From positions 1,860,001 through 1,924,000 of the forward strand of contig NZ_CP031447.1 of the NCBI RefSeq assembly GCF_003391095.1: a DNA stretch of 64,000 bases, in the 5' to 3' direction. Both the position numbers and the translations under genes were made by a program. This DNA comes from Austwickia chelonae (lineage in GTDB: Bacteria > Actinomycetota > Actinomycetes > Actinomycetales > Dermatophilaceae). Positions 18,018-45,002 of this stretch are shown one piece after another (positions within the stretch are counted from its first letter, which is position 1; every line of letters starts with the position of its first letter). Under the pieces are notes generated by a model, which worked only from the letters and a program-made list of their open reading frames with translations, did not search any database and was not told the DNA's origin.

Positions 18018-19286
18018 TCAGAGCGCGATACCGAGCAGCGCGTCGACGAGGTCCCGGACCGTCCGAGCCTGGTCCGCGGCATCCTGACCGGCGTAATCGC
18101 CGCTCAGGGCCTGCTCGGCCCAGGCATCGACGACACCCACAGCCCGGGGCGTGGCCAGATCATCGGCGAGCGCCTGACGCACACCGTCCAGGACCTTGGT
18201 GGCATCCGGCCCGCCAGCAGCCACAGCAGCACGCCAGGTCGTGAGCCGTTCCTGAGCCTGGTGCAGGTCGCTGTCCTGCCATTCCCATTCGGTGGCGTAA
18301 TGGTGGTTGAGCAGGACCAGGCGGACAGCCATCGGGTCGATGCCCTGCGCGCGCAGGGTGGAGACGAGCACGAGATTGCCTCGTGATTTGCTCATCTTGT
18401 GTCCTTCGTAGCCGATCATTGCCTGGTGCACGAAGGCGGTGGCGAAGGTGTCCTGTCCGGTGAGTGCGGTGGCTTGGACTGCGCTGATCTCGTGGTGGGG
18501 GAAGACGAGGTCGGTTCCTCCGCCTTGGACGTCGAAGCCCATGCCGAGGTAGTGCAGTGCGATGGCGGTGCATTCGATGTGCCATCCGGGGCGTCCGGGT
18601 CCGAGTGCGTCGGAGGGCCAGAAGGGTTCTTCGCCGCGGGCACCGCGCCAGAGGAGCGGGTCGAAGCGTCCGCGTTTACCGGCCCGGTCGGGGTCGCCGC
18701 CGCGGTCGGCGAAGACGCCGTCCATGCGCTGTTCGTCCCATCCGCAGGTGGCACCGAAGTCGGGGCAGGCGGTGAGGTCGAGGTAGATGTCGCCGTGGGT
18801 GCCGGGGCGGGTTTTCTCCCCTGCGGGGATGTCGACCCGGTAGGCCTGTCCGTTGGCCAGGAGTGTCGCGACCTGTTCTTCGATGAGTGGGATGGATTCG
18901 ACGACGCCGATGTAGTGGTCCGGGGGGATGACGCGTAGGGCGTTCATGTCGTCCCGGAAGAGTTGGGTCTCGGTCAGGGCGAGTTCCTGCCAGTCGACGC
19001 CGTCGCGGTGTGCGCGTTCCAGGAGGGGGTCGTCGACGTCGGTGACATTTTGGACGTAGGTGACCTGGTGTCCGGCGTCGCGTAGGGCCCGGTTGAGGAT
19101 GTCGAAGGTGACATAGGTGGCGGCATGCCCCATGTGAGTGGCGTCGTAGGGGGTGATTCCGCAGACGTACATGCGGGCCACCGGGCCGGGTTGGAGGGTG
19201 ACGGCGCCGCGGCGGCTGTCCGTCACTGTCGGTTCGCTGCCTTTTCCGGCGAGTACGGGCAGGTGCGGGATGTCCCAGGCGATCAC
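18018..19286 (-). CDS. mshC: Cysteine--GlcN-Ins ligase MshC (mycothiol biosynthesis)
   Basis: Joins cysteine to GlcN-inositol using ATP, the fourth step of mycothiol synthesis. Class I aminoacyl-tRNA synthetase fold derived from CysRS. Motifs: zinc Cys and HIGH-like CGITPYDATHMGHA, zinc ligands in WHIECTAIALHYLG and FPHHEISAVQA, and the KMSKSRGN loop. The 422-residue length is right for MshC and shorter than CysRS, which has an anticodon domain. GTG start, 6 nt after TAGGCT. Its presence indicates a mycothiol-using cell without glutathione, relevant to the YgiC-like gene at 24871. Confidence 0.95.
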   Translation of the reverse strand: MIAWDIPHLPVLAGKGSEPTVTDSRRGAVTLQPGPVARMYVCGITPYDATHMGHAATYVTFDILNRALRDAGHQVTYVQNVTDVDDPLLERAHRDGVDWQELALTETQLFRDDMNALRVIPPDHYIGVVESIPLIEEQVATLLANGQAYRVDIPAGEKTRPGTHGDIYLDLTACPDFGATCGWDEQRMDGVFADRGGDPDRAGKRGRFDPLLWRGARGEEPFWPSDALGPGRPGWHIECTAIALHYLGMGFDVQGGGTDLVFPHHEISAVQATALTGQDTFATAFVHQAMIGYEGHKMSKSRGNLVLVSTLRAQGIDPMAVRLVLLNHHYATEWEWQDSDLHQAQERLTTWRAAVAAGGPDATKVLDGVRQALADDLATPRAVGVVDAWAEQALSGDYAGQDAADQARTVRDLVDALLGIAL

Positions 19287-23659: not shown

Positions 23660-23701
23660 AGCCTGACCGGAGGTCGGGCACCAGGGCTCGACCGCGAGCG
23701 C

Positions 23702-24025
23702 TCAGCGGGGAGCAGGCTCCCCGGCGACCTCGACAACTTCGATGTCGTCGTCGAGGTCGAGGTCGTCCTCGTCGTCGTATTCGAGGTCGTCGTCGTCCAG
23801 ATCGTCGTCATCATCCAGGTCGTCGTCGTTGTACACCTGCAGCGGGGTGACTTCTCCGAAGGCGTCCAGAAGGGCGTCGTCGTAGGCGTCAAAGGCCTCT
23901 GCAAGATCCTGATAGGCCGCGACGACGGCTGGGTCGTCCTCGCCACGACGCGATGAGGACGCCTCCAGGTGGCGTTCGAGGGCTGAGACGAACGTGGCCA
24001 GGGCGACTCGAGGATCTGAGCTCAT
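23702..24025 (-). CDS. Small protein with extreme Asp/Glu tail (called primosomal protein in relatives)
   Basis: A 107-residue protein. The first 60 residues form a helical domain (RVALATFVSALERHLEA, AAYQDLAEAFDAYDDALLDAF), followed by a low-complexity acidic stretch of about 25 residues made almost only of Asp, Glu, Leu and Tyr, then EVVEVAGEPAPR. Similar proteins in Micrococcales carry the name primosomal protein, which I think is unsupported. The coding of the tail shows repeats of GAC/GAT. It may bind basic proteins or nucleic-acid-binding partners; this is a guess. Single gene with its own terminator. Confidence 0.75.
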   Translation of the reverse strand: MSSDPRVALATFVSALERHLEASSSRRGEDDPAVVAAYQDLAEAFDAYDDALLDAFGEVTPLQVYNDDDLDDDDDLDDDDLEYDDEDDLDLDDDIEVVEVAGEPAPR

Positions 24026-24277
24026 GCCCTGAACGCTATCGCGTTCCAGCCGCCGGGTCATCCGGGTTGCAGTCAGATGTGACCTTTCCCGAGATGATCT
24101 GATTTCTGCCAGGGGTGTTGAACGGCAGGTCAGCTGGGCACACGTCGAGGGGTGACACGGAATCACTCGGCGGGGTCGAGGTCCGTCGACCGCACGGCAG
24201 CGGCATATCCTGCTGGCACGCCCCCGCGCGGAGAACACACTCGGGAGGACGACCCGCCTGTCGTCGAGGAGGAGATC

Positions 24278-24871
24278 ATGGCTCGACGCCGGAGCAGGTT
24301 GGTGGCCCTCGGGGTCACCGCGGTGTTGGCTGCGTCGGCCACCGGGTGTGGCGCTCCTGAGGAGGAGTCGAACGCGCAACCCGATCACACCGGTATCTGC
24401 GTGGACCGATCGACCGGCATCCGGCTCGACGATGCCGTGTGCGCGGCGGATCGAGTGCCGCCGTCGGAAGGTTCCCCGAGCAGTCCTGCTGCGACGCCGA
24501 GTCCGTCTCCACGGTGTACTCCAACCACGGCAACGCCGACCCCTTCCTCGACCGGTGGCATGTCCCCGGAGGGCACGGCGACGCCTCCTTCGCCGTGCCC
24601 TCCGGGGCAGGCGCTCACCGATGGTTCTGGCAGCAACGGTTCCACGACGCACCGCTCCCACGGGTGGTATTTCATTCCGTGGGGTTCTTCGGCTCCTGCG
24701 GTGGGGGCGAGGGCCAGCGGTGGGAGTTACTCCGAGCCTCGGTCGGGGTCGTACAGCGTGGGCGGGGTCGCTGCCTCGGGTGGGCGGTTGTCTTCGTCGT
24801 CCTTCTCCAAGGCGAAGTCGACGATCGTGCGGGGTGGTTTCGGTAGCAGTGGAAGCAAGGGTGGCAGCTGA
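24278..24871 (+). CDS. YgiB/DUF1190-like lipoprotein
   Basis: A 197-residue secreted lipoprotein. The signal peptide RRRSRLVALGVTAVLAASATGC has a lipobox ASATGC (Cys at about 22). A Thr/Ser/Pro-rich middle is followed by SHGWYFIPWGSS and a C-terminal SFSKAKSTIVRGGFGSSG, closely like the RGGFG ending of E. coli YgiB/YjfM (DUF1190). The next two genes are the same partners as in the E. coli ygiBC and yjfKLMC clusters, which supports the call. Start at ATG 24278 with AGGAGGAG upstream. The stop overlaps the next ATG by 1 bp (TGATG). Confidence 0.75.
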   Translation: MARRRSRLVALGVTAVLAASATGCGAPEEESNAQPDHTGICVDRSTGIRLDDAVCAADRVPPSEGSPSSPAATPSPSPRCTPTTATPTPSSTGGMSPEGTATPPSPCPPGQALTDGSGSNGSTTHRSHGWYFIPWGSSAPAVGARASGGSYSEPRSGSYSVGGVAASGGRLSSSSFSKAKSTIVRGGFGSSGSKGGS

Positions 24872-26238
24872 TGCAGCGGCAGAGGGTGAGCCCTCGTCCG
24901 CGGTGGCGTGAGCGGGTACAGGCGCAGGGCATGGTCTATTCGACGACGACTTTGCCCGGTGGGGGCGAGGCGCCGTACTGGTACGAGGAGGCCTGTTACG
25001 TCCTGTCCGAGGACGAGGTCGACGTCCTGGAGTCGGCGACGCAGCGCCTGCACGAAATGTCGGTCGAGGCTGCGCATTTCCTGGCTTCGGGGGCGATGGG
25101 TGATCTGGGGTTGCCGGCCGGTTCGCTGCCGCGGGCGGCGGCGTCATTGGCGGCGGATCCACCGAGTTTGTACGGCCGTTTCGATCTGAGGTTCGACGGG
25201 TCGGGGCCGCCGAAGTTGTTGGAGTACAACGCGGATACTCCGACGGGGTTGTTGGAGTCCTCGGTGGTGCAGTGGTACTGGCTGGAGGACACCCATCCTG
25301 ATCGGGATCAGTGGAATTCGTTGCATGAGCGTCTTGTCCTGGCATGGCAGCGGATCGCGCCCCAGCTCGGTGAGGGGCCGGTGTATTTCGCTCATCATGG
25401 GGACGAGCGGACCGGTGAGGAGCAGATGACGGTCACCTATCTGCGGGACACCGCCGATCAGGCCGGGTTGTCGACGGCGTCGATCACGGTGGGGCAGATC
25501 GGGTGGGATCCGGAGGGTCGGCGGTTCGTCGACCTGGACGGGGCTCCGATGGGTGCGGTGTTCAAGTTGTATCCGTGGGAGTTGATGTTGGCCGAGGAGT
25601 TCGGCCCGCAGGTGCGATCGGTTCCTCAGGGCCCGGGTTCGACGGTGTGGCTGGAGCCGTTGTGGAAGGTCTTGCTGTCGAACAAGGCGTTGCTGGCCGC
25701 GTTGTGGCATCTGTATCCGGAGCACGAGTTGTTGTTGCCGGCGTATCTGCACGAGCCGGGTCCGTTGACGCAGTGGGTGGCCAAGCCGTTGCACGGGCGT
25801 GAAGGTGACAACATTCGGGTGCATGCTCCGGGGGTCGAGGTGGAGCAGCCCGGCAGCTATGGCTCCGAGGGGTGGTGCTACCAGCAGTGGTGTCCTTTGC
25901 CGGAGTTCGACGGCAACAAGGCGGTCATGGGCTGTTGGGTGGTCGACGGCCTGCCCGCCGGTCTGGGTGTGCGGGAGAGCGACGGCTGGGTGACCGACTA
26001 CCAGGCCCGTTTCGTGCCCCATGTGATGACCTCGAGCCGGCCTGATGCTGCGGTGCAGCAGGCGTGGTTGGCGGACGCCGGCGCCGATGTGCAGGACGCC
26101 GTCGTGCAGGATGTGCTGCCGGGGGACGGCGGCCCCGGGGCGTCGGCATCGCACCCGATGTTGACTTTGGGTGGGCCCTCTGGTCTGCCTTCAGATGTGC
26201 AGGATGACACCTACCGTGACCGGCGAAGGGCACCGTGA
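24871..26238 (+). CDS. YgiC/YjfC-like ATP-grasp amide ligase (glutathionylspermidine synthase family)
   Basis: A 455-residue ATP-grasp protein of the glutathionylspermidine-synthetase C-terminal family. Family blocks: RPRWRERVQAQGM, PYWYEEACYVLSEDEVD, GRFDLRFDGSGPPKLLEYNADTPTGLLE, VQWYWLEDTHP, AVFKLYPWELMLAEEFG, VWLEPLWKVLLSNKALLAALW and WVAKPLHGREGDNI. It lacks the amidase domain of true GspSA. E. coli YgiC and YjfC are not known to make glutathionylspermidine, and this cell makes mycothiol instead of glutathione, so the substrates must differ. Translationally coupled to both neighbours. The last 60 residues are polar and extra. Confidence 0.85.
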   Translation: MQRQRVSPRPRWRERVQAQGMVYSTTTLPGGGEAPYWYEEACYVLSEDEVDVLESATQRLHEMSVEAAHFLASGAMGDLGLPAGSLPRAAASLAADPPSLYGRFDLRFDGSGPPKLLEYNADTPTGLLESSVVQWYWLEDTHPDRDQWNSLHERLVLAWQRIAPQLGEGPVYFAHHGDERTGEEQMTVTYLRDTADQAGLSTASITVGQIGWDPEGRRFVDLDGAPMGAVFKLYPWELMLAEEFGPQVRSVPQGPGSTVWLEPLWKVLLSNKALLAALWHLYPEHELLLPAYLHEPGPLTQWVAKPLHGREGDNIRVHAPGVEVEQPGSYGSEGWCYQQWCPLPEFDGNKAVMGCWVVDGLPAGLGVRESDGWVTDYQARFVPHVMTSSRPDAAVQQAWLADAGADVQDAVVQDVLPGDGGPGASASHPMLTLGGPSGLPSDVQDDTYRDRRRAP

Positions 26239-26654
26239 TGTTGATCAGTTTGTTCCATGGGGCCGTCTACTCCCTGTTGGGGGTGGCTCTCCTCGTGTTG
26301 GGGTTCTTCACTTTGGACCTGTTGACTCCGGGCCGGTTGGGTAAGCGGATCTACGAGGATCGTTCGGTGAACGCCGCGATCGTGGTGAGCTCGTCCTTCT
26401 TGGGGTTGGGGGCTGTGCAGGCCACGGCGATCTTCACGAACGGTGCCGCCGATCTGGGGCGGGCTTTCGCGTGGACGGCTGGTTTCGGTGTGTTGGGGAT
26501 CATCCTGCAGGCGGTCAGTTTCCTGGTGTTGGACGCGGTGACTCCTGGTTCGTTGCGGCGGATCACGGTGGACGAGGGCTTCCACCCGGGTGCCGTGGTG
26601 GCAGCGGCCTCGATGCTCGCGGTGAGTGCGGTGGTCTGCGCGTCGATCTCCTGA
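26235..26654 (+). CDS. DUF350 family membrane protein (YjfL-like)
   Basis: A 139-residue membrane protein with four predicted helices in two related halves, typical of DUF350: LGVALLVLGFFTLDLLTPGRLG and IILQAVSFLVLDAVTPGSLRR show the repeated motif D-x-LTPG / D-x-VTPG. E. coli YjfL has the same organisation and neighbours. Start GTG at 26235 (GTGA overlap with the previous stop) or the ATG at 26238. It is the third gene of a YgiB-YgiC-DUF350 unit, suggesting an envelope modification system. Confidence 0.85.
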   Translation: MMLISLFHGAVYSLLGVALLVLGFFTLDLLTPGRLGKRIYEDRSVNAAIVVSSSFLGLGAVQATAIFTNGAADLGRAFAWTAGFGVLGIILQAVSFLVLDAVTPGSLRRITVDEGFHPGAVVAAASMLAVSAVVCASIS

Positions 26655-26772
26655 TGTCGCCCGACGGAAAAGGCGCTGCGCGTCGGGCCTCGCACGGCAC
26701 GGGGTGCGGCAGGATGATCTGGTCGGGGTCTTGTGCCCGTGGCCTGTCGGGCTGATCCGAAGGAGCGTGCCT

Positions 26773-27411
26773 GTGCTGTCGTCCTGCCAGCTGCCGGTGT
26801 TCTCGCTGCGCCGTGGACGGAGGCTTCCCGGAGCGTTGGTGTTGTTCGCGGTGACAGCGTGGCTGGGTGTCCTCGGGGTGTGGGGGCCGGTGTCACCGGC
26901 AGGTGCTCATTCGCAGTTGGTGTCCTCCTCCCCCGCCGATGGTTCGACGGTGGATGCGCTGCCGGCAAACGCCACTTTGACCTTCAACGAAGAGGTGCAT
27001 CCCAAGTTCGTGCAGGCGGTGGTCGCACCGGCATCGGGTGAGGCCAGACCGGCCGAGGCTGTTGCCCAAGGCCCGAAAGTGGTGGTCACCCTGCCGCAGG
27101 ACCTGGGCGGAGGGAAGATCGCGGTGCGTTACCGGGTGGTGAGCAAGGACGGGCACCCCATCTCCGGGGAGATCTCGTTCACCGTTCCCGGCGGACAGCC
27201 CCCGGGACAATCCGGCCGGGATGCTTCGTCTGGCACACCCGGTTCGTCGGCACCGACTGGTACGACGTCCTCTGAGCAGGGCCGCCCGGTGACCACGCCG
27301 AACGGGGGCAGCCCGGTCGCCGTGTACCTGTTGACCGGGGGCGCCGCAGTGTTATTGCTGGTCCTGGGGATTCTGGTCTACCGGTGGGATCGGCAACGCG
27401 AACCTCAGTGA
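26773..27411 (+). CDS. CopC/YobA-like secreted protein with C-terminal membrane anchor
   Basis: A 212-residue exported protein. A signal segment (ALVLFAVTAWLGVLGV) ends near AGAHSQL; the mature domain is CopC-like with the N-terminal copper His (AHSQLVSSSPADGSTVDALP), TLTFNEEVHP, and YRVVSKDGHPISGEISFTV with the conserved DGH. A Pro/Ser/Thr linker and a C-terminal helix (VAVYLLTGGAAVLLLVLGILVY) then an RWDR stop anchor follow. It probably binds copper at the outer face of the membrane. I chose GTG at 26773, 7 nt after AGGAG; GTG at 26767 is too close. No CopD neighbour is visible. Confidence 0.82.
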   Translation: MLSSCQLPVFSLRRGRRLPGALVLFAVTAWLGVLGVWGPVSPAGAHSQLVSSSPADGSTVDALPANATLTFNEEVHPKFVQAVVAPASGEARPAEAVAQGPKVVVTLPQDLGGGKIAVRYRVVSKDGHPISGEISFTVPGGQPPGQSGRDASSGTPGSSAPTGTTSSEQGRPVTTPNGGSPVAVYLLTGGAAVLLLVLGILVYRWDRQREPQ

Positions 27412-27462
27412 TCGAACTGCCCCTCCTGTCCCGGTGAGTCGCCCTTGAGGCAGGATGATTCC

Positions 27463-28005
27463 ATGGAGGGCGTGGAAGATCCCGGGAAGATCGGTTCTGA
27501 CGATCGGGAGCAGGCTCGGACCCTTTTGCGTCGACATTGGGAAGCCCACACCCTCGACCCGGACGAGCACGAACACCGAACGACGATGGTGCGCAACGCC
27601 AGGACACTCAGTGAACTGGAAGCTGCGACAGCTGATCTCCCTGCCCTACCGGCCGAGCTAGGTGTGGTCTTGGCCAGCTATGACGACCCCTCTGCGCCGG
27701 GCAATCCCCCTCTGCTCCCTGCCGCCGACAGTGGCCCGACCTCCGAGAAGAATGTACCCTCCACGTCGGCCAGATCCCAGGGGATCATCTCGTTGCCGAT
27801 CGCGCTGTCCACGACGATCACAGCGCTCACACCTTTTCTGGCCTTCCTACTCTTCTTCAATACGGGGAATTTCCTGTACTTCTTCCTCATCCCGGTCGTA
27901 GGGATCCTCTTGAACGGCACCGGGAGCGGCACCTCGACGAAGAAAAACAAGAAGAAAAAGAAGAAGCGCAAGAAGAAAAAAGAGGGTGCGGACGCCTCGG
28001 AGTGA
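27463..28005 (+). CDS. DUF1707 domain membrane protein with polylysine tail
   Basis: A 180-residue protein. The N-terminal DUF1707 (SHOCT-like) domain is KIGSDDREQARTLLRRHWEA...LDPDEHEHRTTMVRNARTLSELEAATADLP. A polar linker leads to two transmembrane segments (LSTTITALTPFLAFLLFF, FLYFFLIPVVGILL) and a tail with about 20 Lys/Arg in a run. The polybasic tail lies on the cytosolic side by the positive-inside rule and could bind acidic lipids or nucleic acid. ATG at 27463 lies 6 nt after CAGGAT. Unrelated to its neighbours as far as I can see. Confidence 0.75.
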   Translation: MEGVEDPGKIGSDDREQARTLLRRHWEAHTLDPDEHEHRTTMVRNARTLSELEAATADLPALPAELGVVLASYDDPSAPGNPPLLPAADSGPTSEKNVPSTSARSQGIISLPIALSTTITALTPFLAFLLFFNTGNFLYFFLIPVVGILLNGTGSGTSTKKNKKKKKKRKKKKEGADASE

Positions 28006-43866: not shown

Positions 43867-45002
43867 TAGTGTCCTGAGTCGGTAATAAGTTGGTTGTTTA
43901 GTAGGCTTAGGGTATGCCGGGTCCTGCCGCGAAACCTCTTGTCCTGACTGATCACGAACGGTCCGTGCTCTTGGGGCGGGCGCGTCGCCCGACGTCACCG
44001 GCGCGACTGGTGCAGCGCTCGAGAATCGTGTTGGCCTACGCCGATGACCCGTCGGTGGCGGGCGTAGCGCGCCAGCTCGGGGTGAGCGCCCCGACGGTGA
44101 CGAAGTAGCGCGACCACTTCCTGACAGGGCGCTTGGACGGCCTGGAGGACGCCCCACGGCCGGGACAGCCCCGCAAGCTGACCGACGAGCAGATCGAGAC
44201 GCTGATCAGCCGCACACTGGAGGGGGCTCCGCCGAACGGAGATACTCGCTGGTCGACCCGGTCGATGGCTGCCGATCAGGGGTTGAATCAGACCCAGGTG
44301 TCGCGGATCTGGCGGGCCTTCGGTCTCAAACCACACGCGGTAGACTCCACCGAAGTCGTCCAAGGACCCGGCGTTCGTGGACAAGGTCCGCGACATCGTC
44401 GGCCTGTACATGTCCCCGCCTCAGAACGCCCTGGTCCTGGTGGTGGATAAGAAGTCCCAGGTCCAAGCCCTCGACCGGACCGCGCCGATCCTGCCGATGA
44501 TGCCCGGCACACCCGCGCGGGCCACCCACGACTACGTCCACCACGGCACGACCACGGTCTTCGCGGCGATGGCCATCATCTCCGGGGCAGTCATCGCCCG
44601 GAACTACCGCCGACACCACTCGGTCGAGTTCCTCCGATTCCTCACAGAAGCCGACGCCGCCACCCCCACAGACCTCGAACTGCACCTGGTCCTCGACAAC
44701 TTCCCCCGCGAGCGGGAGGTGCCCCCAGTCACGCACAAAACCCCAGCCGTCAAGACATGGCTACTCAAACACCCCCGCGTCATACTGCACTTCACCCCCA
44801 CCAACGCGTCCTGCCTCAACCTCGTCGAACGCTGGTTCGCCGAACTCACCCACCATTCCGTGACCGAACTCGAACGCGACATCATCACCTGGACCCAGAA
44901 CTGGAACAACGACCCCAAACCCTTCGTCTAGACCAAGACCGCCGACCAGATCCTCAAAACCCTCACCAGCTACTGCCAACGAACCAACGACTCACGACAC
45001 TA
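43867..45002 (+). mobile_element. IS630-family insertion sequence, decayed
   Basis: About 1.13 kb between terminal inverted repeats: left GTGTCCTGAGTCG at 43869 and right, read inward, GTGTCGTGAGTCG ending at 45000 (12 of 13 match). TA flanks both sides (43867-43868 and 45001-45002), matching the TA target duplication of IS630. It contains one broken transposase gene. It lies in the island next to tRNA-Lys. Confidence 0.88.

Follow-up and report, generated by a model that had tools for sequence, protein, structure and literature searches.

Three genes of the actinobacterium Austwickia chelonae, encoding a lipoprotein, an ATP-grasp ligase of family PF03738 and a DUF350 protein, form an operon with stop/start overlaps throughout. 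They raise the question of what a ligase related to glutathionylspermidine and trypanothione synthetases might join in a host with mycothiol, and to what. The operon lies in a window of 64,000 nucleotides, the whole stretch of DNA that was analysed, and has the following features, all on the plus strand.

24266-24274, +: strong Shine-Dalgarno-like GAGGAGGAG 5′ of the lipoprotein gene (read from the sequence)
24278-24871, +: lipoprotein, presumed ligase substrate, 197 aa, with a small beta domain and a disordered C-terminus (ORF, AlphaFold2, homologues)
24338-24349, +: lipobox-like A-T-G-C, lipidated Cys24 expected (sequence)
24830-24868, +: conserved tail RGGFG-SSGSKGGS, proposed recognition motif and acylation site at the C-terminal carboxylate (116/116 partner tails)
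24871-26238, +: predicted YgiC/YjfC-type ATP-grasp peptide-amine ligase, 455 aa (PF03738, PDB relatives, invariant residues)
26029-26235, +: C-terminal extension of the ligase (residues 387-455), containing three VQD repeats (not present in E. coli YgiC/YjfC)
26235-26654, +: DUF350 (YjfL-like) small membrane protein, 139 aa, accessory (PF03994)

The operon and its ligase

The lipoprotein gene runs from an ATG at 24278 to a TGA at 24869-24871, and its product ends in STIVRGGFGSSGSKGGS. The ligase start ATG, at 24871, shares a base with that stop (TGATG). DUF350 begins at GTG 26235 or ATG 26238, either of which overlaps the ligase stop TGA at 26236-26238; coordinates and overlaps thus hold as an earlier note on this DNA had described them. 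The mshC gene that the same note placed at 18018 was recovered at 18018-19286 on the minus strand (TIGR03447, E = 1.3e-170, above cut-off). By Pfam, the operon is flanked by CopC downstream and by UppP and CorA upstream. The CopC-domain protein adjoins the operon at 26626-27411 (+), and its long N-terminus suggests that the true start is further in. A hyperacidic protein (DDDDLDDDDDLDDDDLEYDDEDD) is encoded divergently at 23700-24025 (−), and two genes past the operon, at 27445-28005 (+), lies the gene for a small protein with hydrophobic stretches and a terminal lysine run (KKNKKKKKKRKKKKEGADASE). The window also holds a piece of an IS630-family transposase at 44377-44931 (+), covering only model positions 129-276 of 299.

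The ligase matches PF03738 (GSP_synth) over the full-length domain (E = 1.7e-133). Among solved structures it is closest to E. coli YgiC (7uk8, 6.8e-77) and YjfC (7uk6, 1.1e-60), the more distant PDB matches being trypanothione synthetase (TryS, 2.1e-30) and glutathionylspermidine synthetase (GspS, 1.5e-19). RefSeq now names the two E. coli proteins 'peptide--spermidine ligase', and Pederick et al. 2023 (Biochemistry 62:899) reportedly described them as peptide-spermidine ligases. YgiC is without GspS activity (PMC12506659).

Residue roles described for GspS and TryS (Mg/ATP, glycyl-carboxylate, spermidine contacts and GSH pocket; PMC3581523, PMC6272389) were mapped onto 117 ligases, comprising the window ligase, its relatives and the E. 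coli enzymes. R103, D105, E118, N120, K272, K305 and R368 are invariant in 117/117, as are the spermidine-contact glutamates E183 and E129; the invariant set covers the phosphate/carboxylate Arg, the Mg ligands, the ATP lysines, the essential Arg and both spermidine-contact glutamates. In all 117, by contrast, the GSH-pocket T441 is replaced by L, M or I and the neighbouring A443 by P (L233 and P235 in the window ligase). This pattern suggests that carboxylate activation and the site for a polyamine-type amine have been kept, while glutathione recognition has been lost. The GspSA equivalog model NF007801 gave the ligase 103.9 bits, against a cut-off of 882, and GshB (GSH-S_ATP, PF02955) was not found in the host genome. 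Since the pocket residues are replaced, mshC is present and GshB is absent, glutathione is an unlikely substrate, as the earlier note had suspected, and an assignment as glutathionylspermidine synthetase (EC 6.3.1.8) was rejected. The ligase stands close to YgiC/YjfC and is predicted to join a polyamine-type amine to a peptide C-terminus.

Two peculiarities of the ligases may be mentioned. The C-terminal extension holds three VQD repeats in the window ligase and two to three in six relatives, while [VI]QD is rare in ligase cores (6 in 43,967 aa); carried by the ligases of the host family, this extension is perhaps a docking element. Seven ligases, including those of loci L014, L015 and L017, have Trp at the position of window R310, an otherwise conserved Arg in a KP-x-x-REG loop (EcGspS R538).

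The lipoprotein and its C-terminal tail

The earlier note had called the lipoprotein a YgiB. No Pfam match was found for it at E<=0.1, so that the name is not a sequence-family assignment; PF06693 (DUF1190) matched E. coli YgiB and YjfM at 2.9e-55 and 2.9e-17, and in hhalign the lipoprotein partners reached a probability of 42-54% against DUF1190, confined to the signal and first-Cys region. Identification as YgiB/DUF1190 was accordingly rejected, the window protein having only the signal/anchor and the tail in common with YgiB. An AlphaFold2 model (6 sequences; mean pLDDT 59.8) shows a small beta domain, predicted with confidence, and a tail disordered from residue 186, with pLDDT >=70 mainly at residues 31-60 and 131-170 and <50 at 186-193 and 195-197.

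Ligase loci were drawn from the host's relatives, from named genomes (80 loci) and from the phylum, and the partner class was defined here by four features: a PF03738 ligase as neighbour, a membrane anchor, an RGG[FL]G-type motif within ~12-34 residues of the C-terminus and an end in -GG or -GS, all of which the window lipoprotein shows. A first tail scan found such a partner in 105/116 loci, the other 11 being one-residue variants or larger gaps rather than absence. In the final count an upstream tailed partner adjoins the ligase in 116/116 loci, which are related rather than independent events and were scored with a pattern widened after inspection of the 11 misses. One fixed strict pattern recovered 111/116 partners and 1/735 other genes of those loci, an excess well beyond chance. 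That sole background match is a second tailed gene beside the partner, in an Actinomadura locus (L092:3769-4407, upstream of the ligase partner), which suggests that some ligases may serve two substrates. In one genome (G062), two separate ligase loci (L015 and L017) each have an RGGFG-tailed partner of their own.

Among the 116 partners the motif reads RGGFG in 93, RGGLG in 9, RGGIG in 5 and QGGFG in 3, with six one-off variants; by position, R is found in 112, G in 114, G in 116, F in 101 or L in 9, and G in 114. V or I stands two before the motif R in 90/116. From motif start to C-terminus there are 12-34 residues, forming a Ser/Gly tail that varies in length and composition outside RGGFG, and the last two residues are GG in 83 and GS in 29 (112/116). 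Most partners carry a lipobox-like site (75) or a lone hydrophobic anchor (39; 2 unclear), which would place the end of the tail outside the cytoplasm. In the host genome RGGFG is encoded at 20 sites (CGN codons only), of which only that in the lipoprotein forms a Ser/Gly-rich C-terminal tail on the product of a plausible gene; no other convincing tailed substrate was seen among them.

The tail might be a docking or regulatory element by which the lipoprotein would bind the ligase and control it, the product being a separate small peptide-polyamine or acid-amine metabolite. GspS and trypanothione synthetase do act on a small tripeptide (PMC3581523, PMC6272389), the ligase is a soluble protein and the tail ends outside, and RGGFG, lying at least 7 residues from the C-terminus, need not be the acylated site. 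Docking alone, however, would not require the last two residues to be limited to GG or GS; moreover, the GSH-pocket residues are lost, and no further gene for an enzyme or peptide is conserved beside the pair across families. We regard this explanation as unlikely. As the same tail is found on the ligase neighbour at every one of these loci, it is probably what the ligase modifies.

The tail extends beyond Actinobacteria. E. coli YgiB ends in RGGFGESVAK...SMGG and YjfM in RGGYGRSSSARGHWGG, and Acidobacteria loci carry the tail too, as do plasmid loci of Pseudomonas, Acinetobacter (two), Indioceanicola, Methylobacterium, Deinococcus and the actinobacterium Tsukamurella. In Sulfitobacter the gene order is reversed and the tailed partner lies downstream of the ligase; the Rhizobium partner has the variant RQGFG, and Brevibacillus only a weak GIGSIKGGGAGS. 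An adjacent tailed partner was not found for two distant plasmid ligases, of Photobacterium (L173) and Azospirillum (L181).

Such conservation would also be expected if the tail were an ancestral piece of one lipoprotein family, a structural element or export signal, and its link to the ligase inherited gene order. Indeed, 115/128 partner bodies connect by single linkage, so that much of the set is homologous. Beyond the signal/first-Cys region, however, no homology could be demonstrated between actinobacterial and DUF1190 bodies, and those of Deinococcus, Acinetobacter and Brevibacillus have no detectable similarity to the actinobacterial set. The tail is also kept where the gene order is reversed, and genomes without the ligase have essentially no partner: over 78 relatives, a partner profile (A2) matched 14/14 ligase-positive genomes, six of which supplied sequences to the profile and match by construction, and 1/64 ligase-negative ones, weakly (5.7e-4). 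Common ancestry as the whole explanation thus appears quite improbable. The comparative search that the earlier note had proposed, for co-occurrence and for the tail, has in this way been carried out with a positive outcome; its idea that the ligase acts on the Gly-rich C-terminus of the lipoprotein passed this comparison.

The third gene of the operon belongs to DUF350 (PF03994, E = 1.2e-19, 71.1 bits, cut-off 26). DUF350 genes occur in 38/113 loci, nearly always directly after the ligase. Hence the triad of the earlier note is real as an operon, but the core is a dyad to which DUF350 is accessory, and the notion of an obligatory partner was discarded. No extra neighbours are conserved across families of ligase loci. 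SHMT near Streptomyces ligase loci looks like synteny. In an Arthrobacter (L023:6209-7744) an APC-family amino-acid permease follows the ligase in place of DUF350, and a further locus (L005) is alike by sequence.

The amine and its source

The complete genome of the host gave no match to the AdoMet decarboxylase (AdoMetDC), spermidine synthase (SpeE) or carboxynorspermidine decarboxylase (nspC) families. De novo spermidine formation, whether via AdoMetDC/SpeE or via carboxyspermidine, was discarded as a source, these genes not being found, and the amine must be imported or different. This absence of spermidine-synthesis genes is a point that the earlier note had missed. AdoMetDC is likewise absent from 28/35 ligase-positive actinobacterial genomes. 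A deep-branching actinobacterial family (f34) presents another arrangement: its operon (G398, L130:4122-9860) encodes the lipoprotein, the ligase, DUF350, a class III aminotransferase, two AdoMetDC proteins and SpeE, and matching operon pieces occur in two other genomes, G204 (G204:C43) and G362.

These genomes bear on another explanation, in which the tail would be the substrate and the actinobacterial amine would be something other than a polyamine, such as ethanolamine, an amino acid, an amino sugar or a lipid or wall-precursor amine, the product being an anchor or cross-link. The absence of AdoMetDC from the host and most ligase-positive relatives, together with that of SpeE and nspC from the host, speaks for it, as do the weak scores of the Arthrobacter permease to several amine and amino-acid permease models. 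However, the spermidine-contact glutamates are invariant in all 117 ligases, the deep-branching family couples the ligase to SpeE/AdoMetDC, and diamines or imported spermidine would fit equally, so that we hold a non-polyamine amine to be rather doubtful. The best fit would seem to be a polyamine or diamine that some hosts synthesize and others take up.

The proposed reaction and its relation to known systems

Taken together, the data make it probable that the ligase and the lipoprotein are a dedicated enzyme-substrate pair, in which the former amidates the tail of the latter with a polyamine-type amine before export. From the observed operon, family, residue and tail conservation and co-occurrence we infer the tail as acyl substrate, the timing before export, the amine and the surface role; the substrate assignment draws on comparative genomics and the predicted chemistry on family knowledge. 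The YgiC-type ligase, cytosolic as judged by its sequence, would bind the lipoprotein precursor at the RGGFG-type motif of the flexible tail; the C-terminal Gly/Ser carboxylate would be phosphorylated with ATP and Mg to an acyl phosphate, which would then be amidated by a polyamine-type amine held at E183 and E129. As the ligase appears cytosolic and the mature tail would lie outside, modification would have to precede or accompany export. The amidated precursor would be exported and lipid-anchored, and the membrane surface would thereby show a protein with a cationic amine end, DUF350 serving as an accessory membrane partner. The amine would be spermidine in E. coli, by report, and here an imported polyamine or other diamine.

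The closest known systems are E. coli ygiBC and yjfIJKLMC, with the ligases YgiC and YjfC, the DUF1190 proteins YgiB and YjfM and the DUF350 protein YjfL. They share with the window operon the ligase family, the catalytic and spermidine residues and an adjacent lipoprotein ending RGG[FY]G...GG, and the yjf operon also has DUF350. In contrast, the body of the window lipoprotein is not DUF1190, no PspA, YjfI or YjfK genes are present, the ligase carries its VQD extension, and the host has mycothiol rather than glutathione and is without spermidine synthesis genes. With glutathionylspermidine and trypanothione synthetases (PF03738) the ligase shares the fold family, the Mg/ATP and glycyl-carboxylate residues and the spermidine glutamates, but its GSH-pocket residues are replaced, it has no amidase domain and its host is without GshB.

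The earlier note considered the system undescribed. This cannot be maintained as such, since chemistry has been reported for YgiC/YjfC and PMC11237479 catalogues the operon class: PspA/CesT-Tir-linked polyamine operons with an ATP-grasp ligase, DUF350, DUF1190, DUF2491 and a K+ channel, and with AdoMetDC variants. The window operon has the same logic of ligase, DUF350 and lipoprotein, with the SpeE/AdoMetDC variant in f34 genomes, but it is reduced to three genes and has no PspA, channel or DUF2491 alongside; the neighbours tested (CopC, UppP and CorA) and the absence of AdoMetDC from the genome place it outside the PspA-linked polyamine operons. The passage of PMC11237479 on polyamine operons does not mention the tail. 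Our literature search found no description of the RGGFG tail or of a peptidyl-polyamine lipoprotein, the text of the main enzymology paper lying outside the search and priority therefore being uncertain, and no statement of the physiological substrate of YgiC/YjfC. Thus the ligase family, the E. coli activity and the operon class are known; what seems new is the universal tail as putative native substrate. A distant parallel is offered by eukaryotes, in which spermidine is amidated to the C-terminal Gly-Gly of SUMO (PMC12270671). The proposed product, a spermidine amide on a protein C-terminal -GG carboxylate, would be alike; SUMO/ubiquitin-spermidine, however, uses E1/E2 chemistry and eukaryotic beta-grasp proteins, and the likeness is one of analogy only (PMC12270671).

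Whether the reading can be generalized appears to us evenly balanced: a widespread ATP-grasp ligase would read the C-terminal RGG[FL]G...GG/GS tag of a membrane-anchored protein and add a polyamine cap, so that the surface would carry a cationic protein in Actinobacteria, Proteobacteria, Deinococcota and Acidobacteria, with scavenged or alternative amines in non-spermidine hosts. The cross-phylum tail on the neighbouring product provides, both for E. coli and for Actinobacteria, a substrate candidate that can be tested. If the reading is correct, polyamines would modify protein C-termini at the surface of bacteria, in chemical parallel to SUMO-spermidine, and would be tied to envelope stress operons (PspA, DUF350).
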